IMG/VR virus record: IMGVR_UViG_3300042373_000180
Span: 1 to 29,209 of that record
Source: a virus
Length of the DNA stretch: 29,209 nucleotides
Strand: one strand, 5' to 3'
Part shown: piece after piece, positions 5,301-12,942 of the stretch
How the letters are laid out: every line of letters starts with the position of its first letter
How positions within the stretch are numbered: position 1 is the stretch's first letter
Notes under the pieces: model-generated
The model's database searches: none
Seen by the model: the letters and a program-made list of their open reading frames with translations, nothing else
Told to the model about the DNA's origin: nothing
Position numbers and translations under genes: made by a program

Positions 5301-5338
5301 AACCGTTTATTTCCGTAGTTTTCGGTTAAATAACTCAT
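5297..5338 (-). other. Mini-ORF of 13 codons linking methyltransferase and small terminase genes
   Basis: ATG at 5338 overlaps the methyltransferase stop (ATGA), and the TGA at 5299-5297 overlaps the next ATG (ATGA). It reads MSYLTENYGNKRL. It may only pass ribosomes across the 34-base gap, or it may be chance. Confidence 0.35.
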
Positions 5339-5862
5339 TTGCAGTATATCCAACAGTCGTCAATCAAGATGCGATTTGGTAGCAACTCGTCTACCGCTTG
5401 AATTACTCCTTGCCAGTTCTCGTGGTAGTCGTCTCCTGCTAAATATCCGCCTTTCTTTACTTTGGGTAGCCAGAGGGCAATATCCTCTTTAACGGCTTCG
5501 TAGGTATGCGTTAGGTCGATAAACACAACGTCCAAAGATTCGTCCGCAAACTTCTTGGAAGCGGCTTTAGAAGTGGCCTTAATGGATTTGTATTTGCGTT
5601 CTCCCATATTGGCCTTGAACATTTGATAGATGTCTACCTCTGTCGCCAGCTTGTGTGTTGTGGCGAGTTCGTTTGGTGAACCCTTCCAAGTGTCAATGAT
5701 TGTTATTTGTTTGTCTGTTGCTTTGTCGCATAGGTAGGCCGAGGACTTACCAAGCCAAGCACCAAGCTCAACGAATGTACCCCCTTCTGGCATTTGTGCT
5801 ATTAGGTAGTCGTATGCTGTTTCGTGGTTAAACCAGCCGTCTATCTCTTGGTAGTGTTTCAT
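5335..5862 (-). CDS. Class I SAM-dependent methyltransferase (Methyltransf_24-like)
   Basis: A 175-residue Rossmann-fold methyltransferase. Motif I is FVELGAWLGKSS (30-41), an acidic residue for the ribose sits in IIDTW (55-59), and the core strand is DVVFIDLTHTYEAVKEDI (111-128), followed by GGYLAGDDYH (138-147). The VFID-H-YE-V-DI arrangement is shared by small phage and cell-surface-sugar methyltransferases. There is no DPPY/NPPY or PC motif, so a DNA adenine or cytosine methyltransferase is unlikely. It follows two glycosyltransferases in a coupled row (ATGA overlaps), so its substrate is probably the glycan, or another molecule, made by them. Confidence 0.88.
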   Translation of the reverse strand: MKHYQEIDGWFNHETAYDYLIAQMPEGGTFVELGAWLGKSSAYLCDKATDKQITIIDTWKGSPNELATTHKLATEVDIYQMFKANMGERKYKSIKATSKAASKKFADESLDVVFIDLTHTYEAVKEDIALWLPKVKKGGYLAGDDYHENWQGVIQAVDELLPNRILIDDCWIYCK

Positions 5863-6824
5863 TTCAGCAGGCGTTCTAAACGAATATCGTTAAAGTCGTG
5901 TATATTGAAGTTGGTTGTCATATCGGCGTGGAGTTGGCAAGCGATATCGAAGGCCTTGTCTTCTGTTAGTTCTCGAATGGCTTTGTTCCAGTCTCCCTTG
6001 TGAGCAACCTTTACGCAGTTCTTGTTTGTTAGGTGTTGGGCGTATGGTGCTACGTCACTAATAATTAACGCACAACCAGCAAATCCCGCCTCTACCATCT
6101 TTAGGTTTGATTTGCAGCGATTAAACTCACTTGGGATAAGTGGAGCAAGGGCAACGTCAAACGCTTGGTACATTGCTCCGTATTCATTCGGGGGCATTGT
6201 TTGGAGCTTGTATCTTGCTCGGCTTGCTTCAACGTAGCCACCAATATCGGCAACGTAAGATTCCACCGTTGAAAGGTCTATATTGTTTTGCGTAAGGTCT
6301 GGCAAGTGGCTTATGCCTGCAACGTAGCCGAAGCGCATTTCGTCTGACGGCTCCCGTGTTATTTGCCATTGCGGGTCTGCGGGGTCAAGGCCGTTCGGAA
6401 TGATAACTACGTTTTTATTTAGCTTCTTGATTTTATCGGCTAAATACTTTTGCGTTGTCCATACCTCGTCTGCAAAATACATAGAGTTTCGTATTCGGTG
6501 TTCAAGTCCTGCTTTGTCGTAGGTGACTTTGGAGGGGTGGTCTAACGCCAAATGCCACCAGTCGTCGTTATCAATGATAACCTTCTTTCCCGACTGCTTA
6601 CAAATAGCGAAGAAGTTGGCAAACGACTCACCAGAAAACGGTACGGCTCTGGAGAATATAACGTGCGTAATTCCTTCCCAGTTGTCGGGCTGTACCTCCT
6701 GCTTGTAATTGATTATTTGAAAATCAATAAGCCCCTTCTCTTTGAGTAGAGTTAGGGGCTTGTAGATGCGGTGGTAAACCACGCCAGAATTTTCGTCACC
6801 GATACAAAGTACGCTTGGCCTCAT
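5859..6824 (-). CDS. GT-B fold glycosyltransferase, GT4/GT1-like
   Basis: The protein starts MRPSVLCIGDENSGVVYHRI at ATG 6824 (ATGA overlap); an upstream in-frame TTG is not needed. It has 321 residues. The N-terminal half has the GVVYHRIYKPL loop of GT4-like enzymes; the middle has VVIIPNGLDP, the linker typical of retaining GT-B enzymes; the C-terminal half has the donor-binding stretch NLKMVEAGFAGCALIISD, the usual E-containing helix followed by the Pro/Ala-Gly loop. It likely uses a nucleotide sugar. The acceptor (DNA base, virion protein or host glycan) cannot be read from sequence. It sits between the GT-A gene and the methyltransferase. Confidence 0.88.
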   Translation of the reverse strand: MRPSVLCIGDENSGVVYHRIYKPLTLLKEKGLIDFQIINYKQEVQPDNWEGITHVIFSRAVPFSGESFANFFAICKQSGKKVIIDNDDWWHLALDHPSKVTYDKAGLEHRIRNSMYFADEVWTTQKYLADKIKKLNKNVVIIPNGLDPADPQWQITREPSDEMRFGYVAGISHLPDLTQNNIDLSTVESYVADIGGYVEASRARYKLQTMPPNEYGAMYQAFDVALAPLIPSEFNRCKSNLKMVEAGFAGCALIISDVAPYAQHLTNKNCVKVAHKGDWNKAIRELTEDKAFDIACQLHADMTTNFNIHDFNDIRLERLLK

Positions 6825-7357
6825 CTTAAATAGTTGTAGTAACAAAGATAGTCTTGGTACGTCTTAATCTTTGGGTTTCTTGTCATTAGCTCCTGTGCAA
6901 ACAACCCATCGGCTTCGTATCTGTACTCGAATCTTGCTTTGCCGATAAACCCAAGCCGAGCCATATAAGAAGCGGTGTCGATTGTTCCCACCCGTGGGGA
7001 TTCGGTAGCGTGAAGACGGGGGTCTCCGTTGCGGAAGCATTGCGCCCAGTTTACAAAGTCCTCCTTGCTATCCTTGACGGCTTCAAACCAGTTCGGGTGA
7101 ATAATGTTATCGTCGTCCAATATGTAAATGTAGTCGTTATCGCTTGCGGACGCTTGTAGGTAGTCAAGTGCCATATTGCGAAGCGGGTTGCCGAAGGCCC
7201 CGCCAAGGTTAGACCGCACCACTTTAACGCCTTTGGGTACTTCTTTCTTTTTGGTAGAGTAGTCCATAAAGACAGTCCAAGTGCAACCAGCAGGAATCGA
7301 CTCCCGCAAGTGTTCGAGGTTCTCTGGGCGTGAGCAAGGGGTAACGATATGAATCAT
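6821..7357 (-). CDS. GT-A fold glycosyltransferase (GT2-like), compact
   Basis: A 178-residue protein beginning MIHIVTPCSRPENL, a typical first strand and loop of GT2 enzymes. The metal- and nucleotide-binding motif is YIYILDDDNIIHP (77-88, DDD at 81-83). The segment NPLRNMALDYL resembles the donor-binding helix, and YEADGLFAQEL the later acceptor-side region. It is short for GT2, close to a bare catalytic domain, with no membrane segment, so it is probably soluble. It is coupled to the HNH gene before it and the GT-B gene after it by ATGA overlaps. Confidence 0.87.
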   Translation of the reverse strand: MIHIVTPCSRPENLEHLRESIPAGCTWTVFMDYSTKKKEVPKGVKVVRSNLGGAFGNPLRNMALDYLQASASDNDYIYILDDDNIIHPNWFEAVKDSKEDFVNWAQCFRNGDPRLHATESPRVGTIDTASYMARLGFIGKARFEYRYEADGLFAQELMTRNPKIKTYQDYLCYYNYLR

Positions 7358-7914: not shown

Positions 7915-8066
7915 TTCTCGTTGGTGTTCCAATACATTTCACACTCACCCTTTTTAATTGGCGAGGTCATAAAGTAGGATTGAAGCATACCAGCAGGAGT
8001 CGTGAAGCGGTAGCAGGTCTCCCGAAGGTCGCAGCCCCTGCCTGTGCATTTGGTTATGTCGGTCAT
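7911..8066 (-). CDS. Small Cys-rich protein, 51 aa
   Basis: ATG at 8066 overlaps the exonuclease stop, and the TGA overlaps the next ATG. The protein begins MTDITKCTGRGCDLRETCYR and ends near GECEMYW. Four Cys in the pattern C-x4-C-x5-C-x24-C suggest a metal-binding or disulfide knot. Similar short proteins with an ITxCTGxxC opening occur in many phages; no function is known to me. Confidence 0.75.
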   Translation of the reverse strand: MTDITKCTGRGCDLRETCYRFTTPAGMLQSYFMTSPIKKGECEMYWNTNEK

Positions 8067-8842
8067 AACTGCCCAATAATAGTGTAGTTGTCTAACTCTG
8101 GCTCCTCCTTGCCCAAGAAAAACTCCTTGTAGATGGAAATCGCCTCTTGCAACTTCTTCTCGCCTTCTTCTACAAATGCAGGACTAATAGTGTAAATACC
8201 TACGTCAAGACTTGCTTTGTCTATTGCAATAAATACGAACTTATCAATAGGTACTCCAAAGAGTCGAGTGTAGATATACGCTTGTAGGTCGTAACCGTAC
8301 TTCTTTGCGCTGTAAGGAAATGCACGTAGGTCTGACGTAGTCTTCAAATCAGCAATAAAATTGTCACCAAGTACGTCGGCCTTAGCGCGAAAAGGAATAC
8401 CGTCAATCATACCAATAGCGGGAACTTCGAACTGGCATCCTTGAATATAGCCAAGGACGTGTTCGTTTCGTATAAGTGCATCTGCAATGCGTCTTGCTTC
8501 GTTGTATTCCTTCTTTGTAATTATTTGGCCGCCTCTTGCTTTGGCCTCCTTCCATATATTCGTATTCTTGCTCTGTACGTCGATAATGTCGTACTCCTCA
8601 ACCCTGTGAGGCTCCAGAGCCATCAGGTGAACTAAACGACCAACGGAAAAGGCATCCGATTCGTCTTGGCCGTATTTCGTGACGTAGTGGTACGTTTTGG
8701 GTGACTGAAGCAAGAGTTTACAAGCCGACGAAGAAAGCGCGGCCTTTGAAAGGTACCCGTAGTAAAACGGATCGTGCATCATCTTTTCTTTGATGGTCTC
8801 CCTATCCCAGGTGCTGCCATCGAGTAGTTCAATAATTTTCAT
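8063..8842 (-). CDS. PD-(D/E)XK exonuclease-like protein (DUF3799/RecE-like)
   Basis: A 259-residue protein. An N-terminal helical segment with SKAALSSSACKLLLQSP and GRLVHLMALEP (His 72) is followed by the nuclease core: Glu 139 in FEVPAIG, KADVL (Asp 156), ADLKTT (Asp 165 and Lys 167, the DxK pair) and the Gln/Tyr motif YDLQAYIYT (Gln 187). This is the order of RecE/Cas4-type PD-(D/E)XK exonucleases. It likely processes DNA ends for recombination, with the ssDNA-binding and RusA proteins as partners. Its 5' end overlaps the dCTPase-like gene by 14 bases. Confidence 0.85.
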   Translation of the reverse strand: MKIIELLDGSTWDRETIKEKMMHDPFYYGYLSKAALSSSACKLLLQSPKTYHYVTKYGQDESDAFSVGRLVHLMALEPHRVEEYDIIDVQSKNTNIWKEAKARGGQIITKKEYNEARRIADALIRNEHVLGYIQGCQFEVPAIGMIDGIPFRAKADVLGDNFIADLKTTSDLRAFPYSAKKYGYDLQAYIYTRLFGVPIDKFVFIAIDKASLDVGIYTISPAFVEEGEKKLQEAISIYKEFFLGKEEPELDNYTIIGQL

Positions 8843-9275
8843 CTTGTCGCTTGTGGTTTTCTTGATTCTTAGAAATATACATACCCTGGATCTCGGAAGC
8901 GTCCATATCTATCGCGATAAATATGTTGAATACGAAATGCAGCACGTCGATCGCTTCGTACTTGAGCTCTGTCATCTCGTCTGTTGATAGTTCTGTTAGT
9001 TTCTTGCTTTTCAATGAGGCGTTTGCAGACTTCCAGGTTTTCCAAGAGGCGTTACCTAACCTACCGCCCAGCGCGTCTAGCAGTTCGCCGAGTTCGTCGT
9101 CAAGGCAGTGCTTATTGTAAATCAAGTAGTTAGCGCATTCGACTATTGACATATTAGAAAAATCATAACCAAGGCGCTTTTGAAGTCGCTTTTGTTTATC
9201 AAGCATCTCTTGCAGACCATTGTTCTCGATCAGCGAGTAACCAAGATCTTTTAATTCATTGTCTTTGTTAGCCAT
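8829..9275 (-). CDS. dCTPase/dUTPase of the dimeric all-alpha family, T4 gp56-like
   Basis: A 148-residue all-alpha NTP pyrophosphatase. Metal ligands: CLDDELGELLDALG (57-70, E61xxE64) and KYEAIDVLHFVFNIF (105-119, E107xxD110). The N-terminal MLDKQKRLQKRL and the ending SKNQENHKRQDENY are very close to T4 gp56 as I remember it, including the C-terminal RQD-x-x-Y. gp56 hydrolyses dCTP and dUTP to monophosphates, keeping cytosine out of phage DNA and feeding dCMP to the hydroxymethylase, which here is the adjacent gene (8-base overlap). A plain dUTPase is the alternative. Confidence 0.88.
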   Translation of the reverse strand: MANKDNELKDLGYSLIENNGLQEMLDKQKRLQKRLGYDFSNMSIVECANYLIYNKHCLDDELGELLDALGGRLGNASWKTWKSANASLKSKKLTELSTDEMTELKYEAIDVLHFVFNIFIAIDMDASEIQGMYISKNQENHKRQDENY

Positions 9276-9972
9276 TGTTGTGTGTTATTTTTTTAAGTAG
9301 GTTAAAATGTTTCTCATAAACGTGGAACGAGTTAGCCGAATATATTAAATTTCCTAATCCAACTGACATTCCTTGATTATTTAAGTTGCTTAATAATCTT
9401 TTGTGAACTGTTGCAAACCAAGCAAAGTCATTAAAGAAGCCGTATATCGCGTCATTAGAACGCATATTAACTACGGAGTGAAGCTTTCCGCCCCTTATGA
9501 AAAACTGATGCGATAGAGTGCATATAAAGTCATTCATACCATCTCGCTTAAAATCTTCGTGCATAGATGGTCTATTGTAAATCATAATAGCTCTACGCGA
9601 ACTTTTGTCTTCTAAAAGAGTTTTCGCGCACTTGTTGAACTGAAAATGATTTTCACTAGAATAAACAAGGTGGCCATAGTTAGAATTTACTTCTCTATTT
9701 GCCGAGCAAATGTTATTCCATATAGAAGCAACGTTTGCAACCTTGTCTACGTTAAGCGAATAACTATCGTACCAATCTGTCTCAAGCTTAACGTATTCTT
9801 CATTTGTCTTTTTAGCGCCTAAGTCAATAACGTAATCAGAAGGATCGAGAACAAGAACAGCCATAAGCTTTTCAACTAATAACGATCCAGACTTGTCCTT
9901 AACAAAGTTCTCTTTGTCTAATTCTTCTCTTAGCTCTGTGAATAGCTTTAATACAGCTTTATTGTTTTTCAT
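9268..9972 (-). CDS. Deoxycytidylate (dCMP) 5-hydroxymethylase-like, T4 gp42 type
   Basis: A thymidylate-synthase-fold protein of 234 residues (T4 gp42: 246). Phosphate-binding Arg pair SSRRAIMIY (124-132); catalytic Cys 151 in DFICTLSHQFF; RSNDAIYGFFNDFAW (171-185). In ThyA the position of Asp 182 is Asn 177, which selects dUMP; Asp here is the mark of dCMP hydroxymethylases. VNSNYG, RPSM, DGM-DF and SFHVYEKHF match gp42 as I recall it. It would make hydroxymethyl-dCMP with methylene-tetrahydrofolate. No hm-dCMP kinase (T4 gp1) is seen. The gene is AT-richer than its neighbours and carries GATC sites that are rare elsewhere. Confidence 0.9.
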   Translation of the reverse strand: MKNNKAVLKLFTELREELDKENFVKDKSGSLLVEKLMAVLVLDPSDYVIDLGAKKTNEEYVKLETDWYDSYSLNVDKVANVASIWNNICSANREVNSNYGHLVYSSENHFQFNKCAKTLLEDKSSRRAIMIYNRPSMHEDFKRDGMNDFICTLSHQFFIRGGKLHSVVNMRSNDAIYGFFNDFAWFATVHKRLLSNLNNQGMSVGLGNLIYSANSFHVYEKHFNLLKKITHNNG

Positions 9973-10210
9973 AAGATGCCGCGTAAGCTATTAGATCAAG
10001 AACAGAATCGTACTTCTTGGCGTGAGCTAGTCTAGATAACTTTAATGCCATCATACACTTGTAGAAGTCGTCTGTTGTTATTTCCTTATTACACAACTCA
10101 GATGCTATTCTAGCTGCCTTAGTCATAGACTCGCTGAATGGACCGTATTCGCGCTCTTTTTCTTCAGAACGTTCAAATACAATTTTGTTGGCGTGTTCTA
10201 GTATATTCAT
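9959..10210 (-). CDS. Small conserved phage protein, 83 aa (possibly DUF6378)
   Basis: An 83-residue helical protein, MNILEHANKIVFERSEEKER, with the phrase REYGPFSESMTKAARIA and then DDFYKCMMALKLSRLAHAKKYDSVLDLIAY. This pattern (YGxFxES, Kx2RL, DSxxDxIxY) matches a small phage family I believe is DUF6378. Family members often neighbour nucleotide metabolism genes. It overlaps the hydroxymethylase gene by 14 bases and its ATG abuts the previous stop (TAATG). Confidence 0.78.
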   Translation of the reverse strand: MNILEHANKIVFERSEEKEREYGPFSESMTKAARIASELCNKEITTDDFYKCMMALKLSRLAHAKKYDSVLDLIAYAASYEKQ

Positions 10211-10371
10211 TATTTAGCGTTTATGGCCAGTTGCAACGCCTCGTTAAATCCACGCTGGTAGTTTATTTCCTTGTCGGATTCTTCAATTCGCTTCAAGAAG
10301 TCAATATCTTTTTGGTCGATTCTTGCTCCGTGTTCGGATGCAATCTTTACAAATAGGTAGGTAAGTGTCAT
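10210..10371 (-). CDS. Small protein, 53 aa, unknown
   Basis: ATG 10371 to TAA 10210-10212, the stop sharing one base with the next ATG (TAATG). It reads MTLTYLFVKIASEHGARIDQ, then a charged helix and a C-terminal YQRGFNEALQLAINAK. It is a soluble helical protein. It fills the gap between two supported genes with perfect junctions; no family is recognised. Confidence 0.65.
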   Translation of the reverse strand: MTLTYLFVKIASEHGARIDQKDIDFLKRIEESDKEINYQRGFNEALQLAINAK

Positions 10372-11360: not shown

Positions 11361-11760
11361 TGTATACGTTTCTAAGTTCTTCAATCCACTGCTTCCAGAG
11401 TTTAGGATTGCAACCGCAAGGGATATGGTAGGTATGATTAAAAACGCGAGCGTGAATCTTTGCTATTTGCTTTTGGTCTTGTGAACTCATTGAGGACTTA
11501 TACCGTACATAAAACTCGGTAAGCCATTCGTATTCCTTCTGCTCCAAGCATTTTGGATTCTTGCTTGGAAATAATTGATTAAGCTTTTCTTTACGAGCTT
11601 CGCAACCGCAGTCTACACCTGTTGCTTCGCTAAACCAATCAACTACTGCCTTGATGCCAGTAGCTTCGGTAAACTGCTCGATTCTATCCCCTAGACCTTT
11701 TGGCTTTGGACCACGCTTGGTACTCTTCTTCGCAATTGGTTTTAATTCTTTCTCTTCCAT
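11350..11760 (-). CDS. Cys-rich conserved phage protein, 136 aa
   Basis: A basic N-terminus (MEEKELKPIAKKSTKRGPKP) is followed by GLGDRIEQFTEATGIKAVVD, then VDCGCEARKEKLNQLFP, and a C-terminal HIPCGCNPKLWKQWIEEL. The paired CGC motifs probably form a metal site. From memory, this GLGDxIExFTxATGI / DCGCxxRKxxLNxLFP family is typical of Bacteroidota phages, with unknown function. The basic tail followed by a Cys motif would suit DNA binding. It overlaps the sigma-like gene by 77 bases in another frame. Confidence 0.75.
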   Translation of the reverse strand: MEEKELKPIAKKSTKRGPKPKGLGDRIEQFTEATGIKAVVDWFSEATGVDCGCEARKEKLNQLFPSKNPKCLEQKEYEWLTEFYVRYKSSMSSQDQKQIAKIHARVFNHTYHIPCGCNPKLWKQWIEELRNVYNEY

Positions 11761-12214
11761 TTTTAAGTGTGTGATAAATTGAACGTAAGCTAATTTTTGT
11801 ATCTTTTGATAGCTTTCTCATAGATATATCTGAACCGTGGTACAAAGTAAATAATTTATTGTCGTACCAGTCCCATTTTGCCACTTCCATATTTACCGCC
11901 TCAGCTAAGTCTGTAAAAGCCAGATCAGATTCAAGATCGTGCATTTCGTCTATATCGTCGAATTCCTCAATCGATACGAATTTAGCCGCCTGTTGCTGCT
12001 GGCGCAAATAAAGATTCCGAAGCGTAATGTAAACGAAGAACGTATTTGGTTCGTCTCCGTAACGAATCTTCTCAAAGTCCTTTACGTACGTGTACATTCT
12101 TATGTACATATCTTGAACGAGGTCTTGGGCGGTATCGTAGTCCGCACCAAAACTTTTGGCCATCCGAATCCAGTCGGGGTGGCGTTCTGCTAATCGTTCA
12201 AGTAGTTCTCCCAT
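11684..12214 (-). CDS. Sigma-like transcription factor (sigma-70/ECF type), 176 aa
   Basis: The N-terminal part has a region-2-like helix set, HPDWIRMAKSFG and DYDTAQDLVQDMYIRMYTYV (about 26-45), as in sigma factors (A-x-DLxQDxYxR). The C-terminal part has a region-4-like HTH, ISMRKLSKDTKISLRSIYHT (about 130-150), followed by a basic helix. An acidic linker lies between. It probably redirects the host RNA polymerase to phage late promoters. It could also act only as an HTH regulator. Confidence 0.75.
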   Translation of the reverse strand: MGELLERLAERHPDWIRMAKSFGADYDTAQDLVQDMYIRMYTYVKDFEKIRYGDEPNTFFVYITLRNLYLRQQQQAAKFVSIEEFDDIDEMHDLESDLAFTDLAEAVNMEVAKWDWYDNKLFTLYHGSDISMRKLSKDTKISLRSIYHTLKNGRERIKTNCEEEYQAWSKAKRSRG

Positions 12215-12345
12215 TCGATTTCGAGGATAAAGATAAGCAAGGGTATCTGTATCTGGTGAACTTCGATGTCGTCCAGTTCTACTTTCGACCAGTTGAAGCC
12301 AAGTAAAACGCCATAAATAGGGTAAAATCCGATATTAAAATTCAT
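12190..12345 (-). CDS. Small protein, 51 aa, partly hydrophobic
   Basis: ATG 12345 to TAG 12190. MNFNIGFYPIYGVLLGFNWS is followed by an acidic stretch and IQIPLLIFILEIEW. It overlaps both neighbours slightly (11 and 25 bases). The pattern recalls short phage proteins with a GxxLGxNW motif, of unknown function; it may be membrane-associated. Confidence 0.65.
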   Translation of the reverse strand: MNFNIGFYPIYGVLLGFNWSKVELDDIEVHQIQIPLLIFILEIEWENYLND

Positions 12346-12724
12346 TGGTTATCTGGTTTATTTGTTGCAGCTTGGCTTTTAGATACGTTATCTGTTGCTT
12401 CAATTCTGCATTCTCTTTAACCAAATAATCATAATTAAGCACATTGGTTACCGATTTCTCTTCTGGCGTTTCTTGCTTTGGCAATTCACCTCGGATATGC
12501 AAGGCCGACTTCAATGCCGATTCATAAAAAGCGTTGCGCCTGTATTGCAACTTCTCATAGTGAATTATAGTCGAGTGGTCTTTGCCTAATTGGAACCCAA
12601 GCTCCGTTAGCGTGTACATAGGTCGGAACGCCTTGCAATAAGCCGAGCGGACTACCACGTTTCTTGCCTTGCGGCTTCCATCGTCTTCGTACTGAATGTA
12701 GTCGCAGAATGTTTTGTAGTTCAC
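12335..12724 (-). CDS. DnaA domain IV-like DNA-binding protein, 129 aa
   Basis: The best start is GTG 12724, which overlaps the previous stop as GTGA; a reading from ATG 12826 would run 103 bases into the upstream gene. The HTH matches the DnaA C-terminal domain: ARNVVVRSAYCKAFRPMYTL and ELGFQLGKDHSTIIHYEKLQ (41-60), the latter carrying the DnaA signature DHSTIIH. The C-terminal third is a coiled coil (YLVKENAELKQQITYLKAKL). It may mark the phage origin or recruit host replication proteins for the helicase encoded nearby. Confidence 0.85.
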   Translation of the reverse strand: MNYKTFCDYIQYEDDGSRKARNVVVRSAYCKAFRPMYTLTELGFQLGKDHSTIIHYEKLQYRRNAFYESALKSALHIRGELPKQETPEEKSVTNVLNYDYLVKENAELKQQITYLKAKLQQINQITNEF

Positions 12725-12942
12725 CTTTTGCCTCGGTATTGTGCCTTGCCCATCTGGCGTTGCGTTAGTACGTGAAGGAGTGGTACGCTGAATTGTTTGC
12801 CCTGCTCGTCCTGTATAAGCATCCACGCTCCCCAGTCCTTCCAGTTGCTTGCACGGCGGTAGTCAAGCACGACAAAACGCTTCTGGTCTATTTCAAAGAT
12901 TTCGTCGATGTCAAACGGCAGGGGGATAAAATCGCCTCTCAT
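12721..12942 (-). CDS. Small protein, 73 aa, unknown
   Basis: ATG 12942 overlaps the previous stop (ATGA). MRGDFIPLPFDIDEIFEIDQ is followed by a compact beta-like segment (KRFVVLDYRRASNWKDWGAW) and a basic end. It may be a small DNA-binding or SH3-like fold. No family is recognised. Confidence 0.65.
   Translation of the reverse strand: MRGDFIPLPFDIDEIFEIDQKRFVVLDYRRASNWKDWGAWMLIQDEQGKQFSVPLLHVLTQRQMGKAQYRGKR

Follow-up and report, generated by a model that had tools for sequence, protein, structure and literature searches.

The window analysed here, a 29,209-nucleotide stretch of viral DNA (IMG/VR record IMGVR_UViG_3300042373_000180), carries on its minus strand three genes that overlap within one operon and that we interpret as an exchangeable cassette for cytosine modification. 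In order of transcription, they encode a DUF6378 protein, a dCMP hydroxymethylase of the T4 gp42 family (‘P0002’) and a dCTPase of the T4 gp56 family (‘P0001’). Judged from the genes, we consider it probable that these proteins draw on a host kinase and a host DNA polymerase to produce phage DNA that contains 5-hydroxymethylcytosine (hmC). P0001 would cut host-supplied dCTP, and probably dUTP too, to the monophosphate; removal of dCTP would exclude plain dC from the phage DNA and feed the hydroxymethylase. P0002 would then make 5-hydroxymethyl-dCMP (hm-dCMP) with methylene-tetrahydrofolate, host kinases would charge this to hm-dCTP, and the host DNA polymerase would insert it. Much or all of the phage cytosine would become hmC, and so resistant to restriction. 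In T4, the dCTPase depletes dCTP, the hydroxymethylase makes hm-dCMP, and dNMP kinase mutants resemble hydroxymethylase mutants (PMC6071114). What the genes predict here is the textbook T4 chemistry of cytosine replacement as a portable cassette of 1.4 kb, in phages six times smaller.

The hydroxymethylase and dCTPase genes

The genes for the hydroxymethylase (positions 9268–9972; 234 amino acids) and the dCTPase (8829–9275; 148 amino acids) overlap by 8 bp and are present where the earlier note, which did not give their strand, had placed them; both are on the minus strand. P0002 has the thymidylate synthase (TS) fold, as that note proposed: it matches the Pfam model Thymidylat_synt (E 8e-13), and its best match in the PDB by phmmer is T4 dCMP hydroxymethylase (E 9e-49, residues 15–226). 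It aligns at 38% identity with gp42 from the T4 genome, and its identity to gp42-type phage genes is 39–46% among the matches listed. The nucleophile of T4 gp42 is Cys148, and Asp179 sets the preference for dCMP over dUMP (PMC6400193). Both are kept in P0002, as Cys151 (codon 9520–9522, minus strand) and Asp182 (codon 9427–9429, minus strand), together with R123, R124, E60, D145, Y96, H216 and Y218 (T4 numbering), conserved residues whose roles have been established in T4 (PMC6400193), and with S94 and D171. Aligned with E. coli ThyA, Cys151 falls on Cys146 and Asp182 on Asn177; the selecting position is thus Asp, not Asn, and the assignments to gp42 and gp56 made in the earlier note hold in alignments to those two T4 proteins. 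On its sequence, then, P0002 is a member of the T4 gp42 family, and production of hm-dCMP is predicted.

A ThyA-type C-terminal tail was sought in P0002 and not found; the protein ends ...LLKKITHNNG, without the KAPxAI-type end, and T4 gp42 likewise lacks the tail (PMC6400193). The tail bears on another reading of P0002, as a dCMP methylase making 5-methyl-dCMP, so that the DNA would contain 5-methylcytosine (5mC) rather than hmC. A dCMP methylase route has been proposed for XP12-type phages; Asp-type enzymes with a ThyA-like tail do occur beside DUF6378 in other phages, and Asp at the selecting position alone makes ThyA a dCMP methylase, according to work cited in PMC8670742. Yet P0002, tailless, is far nearer T4 gp42 than any ThyA, and on the TS tree it lies inside the gp42 clade (SH-aLRT 99), which makes a methylase quite improbable here.

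P0001 aligns with T4 gp56 over 145 residues at 40% identity, with a score 38 standard deviations above shuffled sequences, and the two proteins match the same models (PF08761, phrog_173, phrog_18650 and phrog_12184). The gp56-like motifs named in the earlier note are all present in P0001: MLDxQxxLQxRL at residues 24–35, the metal-site motif formed by E61/E64 and E107/D110, and the RQDxxY ending, which aligns with that of gp56. By homology and by its ExxE/ExxD motifs P0001 is a member of the T4 gp56 family, all-alpha pyrophosphohydrolases of the dCTPase/dUTPase type, and hydrolysis of dCTP is predicted. Its structural model is all-helical, but the mean pLDDT is 57 and the model was built on 4 sequences only; a sequence search of the PDB with P0001 gave no match.

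Because gp56-family enzymes cut dUTP as well, the dCTPase reading of P0001 relies on similarity and context. The protein might instead be a housekeeping dUTPase, an incidental neighbor of the hydroxymethylase that leaves dC undepleted. PF08761 is named dUTPase, T4 gp56 itself cuts dUTP, and in some phages (L220 and L490, discussed later) a trimeric dUTPase stands between DUF6378 and the hydroxymethylase. We nevertheless think a housekeeping role unlikely: the gene for P0001 is gained and lost with that for the hydroxymethylase as one cassette, and its best phage relatives, among the matches listed, are T4-type gp56 dCTPases. Measured against a relative of 92–93% identity (L004), dN/dS is 0.03 for DUF6378, 0.07 for the hydroxymethylase and 0.06 for the dCTPase, values that rule out decayed genes or pseudogenes and point to strong purifying selection. 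Chance resemblance to the T4 enzymes is ruled out by the E-value of P0002 in the PDB search and by the distance of the P0001 score from shuffles.

Genome size, kinases and glycosyltransferases

The IMG/VR record is classed as linear. Two sister records, of 29,993 and 29,494 bases, are circular permutations of the window, with gene content and order in common and different start points, and their ends overlap each other. Both ends of the window lie inside one tail ORF, whose length in the sisters is 711 and 714 amino acids. From this comparison we estimate that about 0.2–0.3 kb is missing from the window and that the full genome is about 29.5 kb. The description ‘29-kb phage’ in the earlier note is therefore right approximately; the record is classed as linear, yet the sisters, of 29.5 and 30.0 kb, are circularly permuted. 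Since the window is nearly complete, the absence from it of a nucleotide kinase and, among the proteins scanned, of a recognizable DNA polymerase counts as evidence. That the window is a piece of a larger T4-like genome is ruled out: its replication and structural genes belong to a small tailed phage, and it is collinear, up to permutation, with the two sisters. The replication block, with small ORFs adjoining, includes a sigma-factor-like protein (11684–12214, minus strand) and a weak DnaA C-terminal match (12335–12826, minus strand).

T4 requires gp1 for the kinase step on hm-dCMP. With T4 gp1 and a pair of thymidylate-kinase-like proteins as queries, phmmer found no homologue in the window or in sisters G009 and G010. 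P-loop motifs are confined to the terminase, the helicase and two small proteins unrelated to kinases of this kind, leaving no spare P-loop kinase in any of the three. The earlier note was correct, then, that no gp1-like kinase is encoded. A subset of the window's proteins was run against Pfam or PHROGs, with no DNA polymerase among the matches. How hm-dCMP would be charged without a phage kinase becomes a concrete, testable question. Host enzymes might charge it poorly, leaving hmC at a minority of cytosines; the absence of a kinase from the window and from two near-complete sister genomes favors such partial modification, as does the pairing of an Asp-type enzyme with a nearby thymidylate-kinase-like gene in L006 and in Microbacterium phage Juanyo. 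The dCTP-destroying partner, however, is under strong selection, and without hm-dCTP as a working substitute for dCTP such an enzyme would come at a cost. We therefore hold partial modification to be rather doubtful and prefer replacement of much or all of the cytosine.

Two glycosyltransferase-like genes (5859–6845 and 6821–7357) lie 2–4 kb from the cassette and share its minus-strand orientation; the sisters that carry the hydroxymethylase have kept both. They could glycosylate hmC, as the alpha- and beta-glucosyltransferases of T4 do, but they occur family-wide, and enzymes 97–98% identical are present in close relatives that have no hydroxymethylase. Dedication to hmC was rejected on this account as the simplest reading, and we judge hmC glycosylation by these enzymes to be improbable; because they are family-wide, their main role is probably another one, and they are probably not partners of the hydroxymethylase. 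With a SAM methyltransferase (PF13578) they form a block (5335–7357, minus strand) found throughout the family irrespective of the hydroxymethylase; its genes may be used to decorate the virion, or else to act at the surface of the host. Another phage contig, L006 (6288–10738), has a hydroxymethylase beside the thymidylate-kinase-like gene. It also encodes there a UDP-galactopyranose mutase (E 4e-79) and carries an unassigned gene that may specify a glycosyltransferase, and is a candidate for DNA containing galactofuranosyl-hmC.

The exchange slot and the DUF6378 gene

The cassette is inserted (8843–10209, minus strand) between two conserved genes: upstream a small ORF (10210–10371, minus strand), and downstream a PD-(D/E)XK exonuclease of the DUF3799/exonuclease VIII-like kind (8063–8842, minus strand; Pfam and PHROGs). 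More than 100 loci of this phage family emerged from scans that used the glycosyltransferase and the exonuclease as anchors, and 70 slots were classified. No insert is present in 41 of the 70, with a gap of exactly 2 bp in 10 of these, and 18 hold a C5-cytosine DNA methyltransferase (PF00145; E ~1e-66 or better for the complete genes tested). The DUF6378–hydroxymethylase–dCTPase cassette is complete in three slots and truncated by the contig edge in two; the rest hold a PP-loop/PAPS-reductase-like gene (two), something else (two) or edges (two). Slot junctions are gene-exact, at start codons. Since its occupants include both the hydroxymethylase cassette and a C5-cytosine methyltransferase, which would give post-replicative 5mC, the slot houses alternative ways of altering C5 of cytosine: it is a locus where phages swap two modes of modifying one cytosine atom, presumably under restriction pressure. 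Elsewhere in the window, tblastn gave no significant match to a second C5-methyltransferase. The methyltransferases in the slots of L040, L055, L059 and L063 range from 280 to 466 amino acids and differ in size by repeated middle segments, comparable to the several target domains of multispecific phage methyltransferases. The PP-loop/PAPS-reductase-like gene of L113 (4918–5781), read from sequence with no Pfam match and found in the corresponding slot of two relatives (L170 and L181), may represent a third type of gene for modification or counter-defense.

In sister phages L007 and L009–L011, DUF6378 and the hydroxymethylase are followed, ahead of the exonuclease, by a MazG protein (PF01503) where the gp56 relative stands here, and so the position behind the hydroxymethylase is filled by two kinds of pyrophosphohydrolase. 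MazG also accompanies 9 of 80 ordinary ThyA loci, hence its co-occurrence alone is not specific. This substitution, the exchange slot with its C5-cytosine methyltransferases and the DUF6378 gene itself were overlooked in the earlier note.

The DUF6378 gene (9959–10210, minus strand; 83 amino acids) overlaps that of the hydroxymethylase by 14 bp and matches PF19905 with E 2e-14 (53.8 bits, against a gathering threshold of 27.1). It is present in cassette-bearing relatives and absent from cassette-less ones. In an IMG/VR scan anchored on DUF6378, the TS-family neighbor carries Asp at the position of ThyA residue 177 in 71 of 71 scorable loci, against Asn in 80 of 80 ordinary ThyA loci, none of which (0/80) has DUF6378; these counts include loci shared between scans and many near-copies, and the ThyA controls come from other phage groups. 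Within the clade that has a ThyA-like tail, Asp occurs in all 58 scorable loci, with both DUF6378 and MazG in 54, and these tailed Asp-type enzymes beside DUF6378 may be dCMP methylases. L202 (3115–4872) and its relatives L269–L327 have the order DUF6378, ThyA-like enzyme (Asp at 177, tail intact), MazG, and are candidates for dCMP methylase systems that would yield DNA with 5-methylcytosine. In L220 (4001–5732) and L490 (133–1881), the trimeric dUTPase-like gene mentioned above replaces MazG or gp56 between DUF6378 and the Asp-type enzyme; L220 has a deaminase-like gene there as well. DUF6378 accompanies 11 of 80 gp42-like loci. Its association on the TS tree requires approximately eight changes, at least five of them forced by starred branches, and inheritance as a single block therefore fails to explain it. 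More distant DUF6378 copies in two mycobacteriophages have no annotated TS gene adjoining, and for that reason we confine the claim that DUF6378 is a marker to the close subfamily. A scan of 84,980 cellular genomes returned one short contig, also with an Asp-type enzyme.

DUF6378 is predicted (pLDDT 87) to fold as a bundle of four helices, and it has conserved charged residues. No match to this fold was found in the PDB by Foldseek (best E 2.3), by VIA-align (best Z 4.9, ordinary for a helical bundle) or by sequence, and no function can consequently be deduced from it; matches among viral structures are mostly other DUF6378 proteins. A speculative reading, which we hold less likely than not, is that DUF6378 of the close subfamily is an unrecognized third component of phage pathways for C5 modification of cytosine. 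It might help a host kinase to accept hm-dCMP, or channel hm-dCMP between enzymes. If so, DUF6378 would let compact phages that lack a kinase or polymerase replace all of their cytosine. An uncharacterized domain in any case gains a strong functional context.

Comparison with known systems

The hmC system of T4 is the closest in kind: homologues of gp42 and gp56 are present, their active sites are conserved, and the same pre-replicative logic is predicted. The T4 genome, though, is 169 kb, as against ~29.5 kb here; in the phage described here the gp42 and gp56 genes are adjacent and overlapping, with DUF6378 added, and there is no gp1, no recognizable polymerase among the proteins scanned and probably no glucosyltransferase linked to the hydroxymethylase, whereas T4 has gp1 and both alpha- and beta-glucosyltransferases. 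The system is thus one predicted to work like that of T4, yet it is not the complete T4 system, no kinase being encoded. Phage C5-cytosine DNA methyltransferases (PF00145) modify the same cytosine atom and occupy the same slot in relatives; they differ in acting on DNA after replication and in yielding 5mC at target sites.

The MetaGPA contigs, picked out by an assay that detects cytosine modification, share two features with this locus and its sisters, namely a TS-family protein with Asp at position 177 and a co-occurring pyrophosphohydrolase domain of the MazG clan (PF01503) (PMC8670742). The two features together support the cytosine-modification reading independently, by analogy. There, a carbamoyltransferase modifies hmC further, and the main text neither mentions DUF6378 nor describes an exchange slot (PMC8670742). 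Microbacterium phage Juanyo (41 kb) is likewise small and has MazG near its Asp-type TS-family enzyme; it differs in having its own thymidylate-kinase gene, no annotated DUF6378 or gp56 relative, and a very long branch on the tree.

The earlier note called such a system unexpected in so small a genome. For the gp42 clade among isolates this is so: nearly all close gp42 relatives, among the matches listed, are in T4-like phages of ~160–175 kb. It is less so more widely, as databases hold smaller isolates (41–53 kb) with distant Asp-type enzymes and IMG/VR holds many contigs with gp42-like enzymes. The enzyme families themselves are known; what is new, going by the sequences compared, is that a phage of 29.5 kb combines DUF6378 with the gp42/gp56 pair in an exchange slot.
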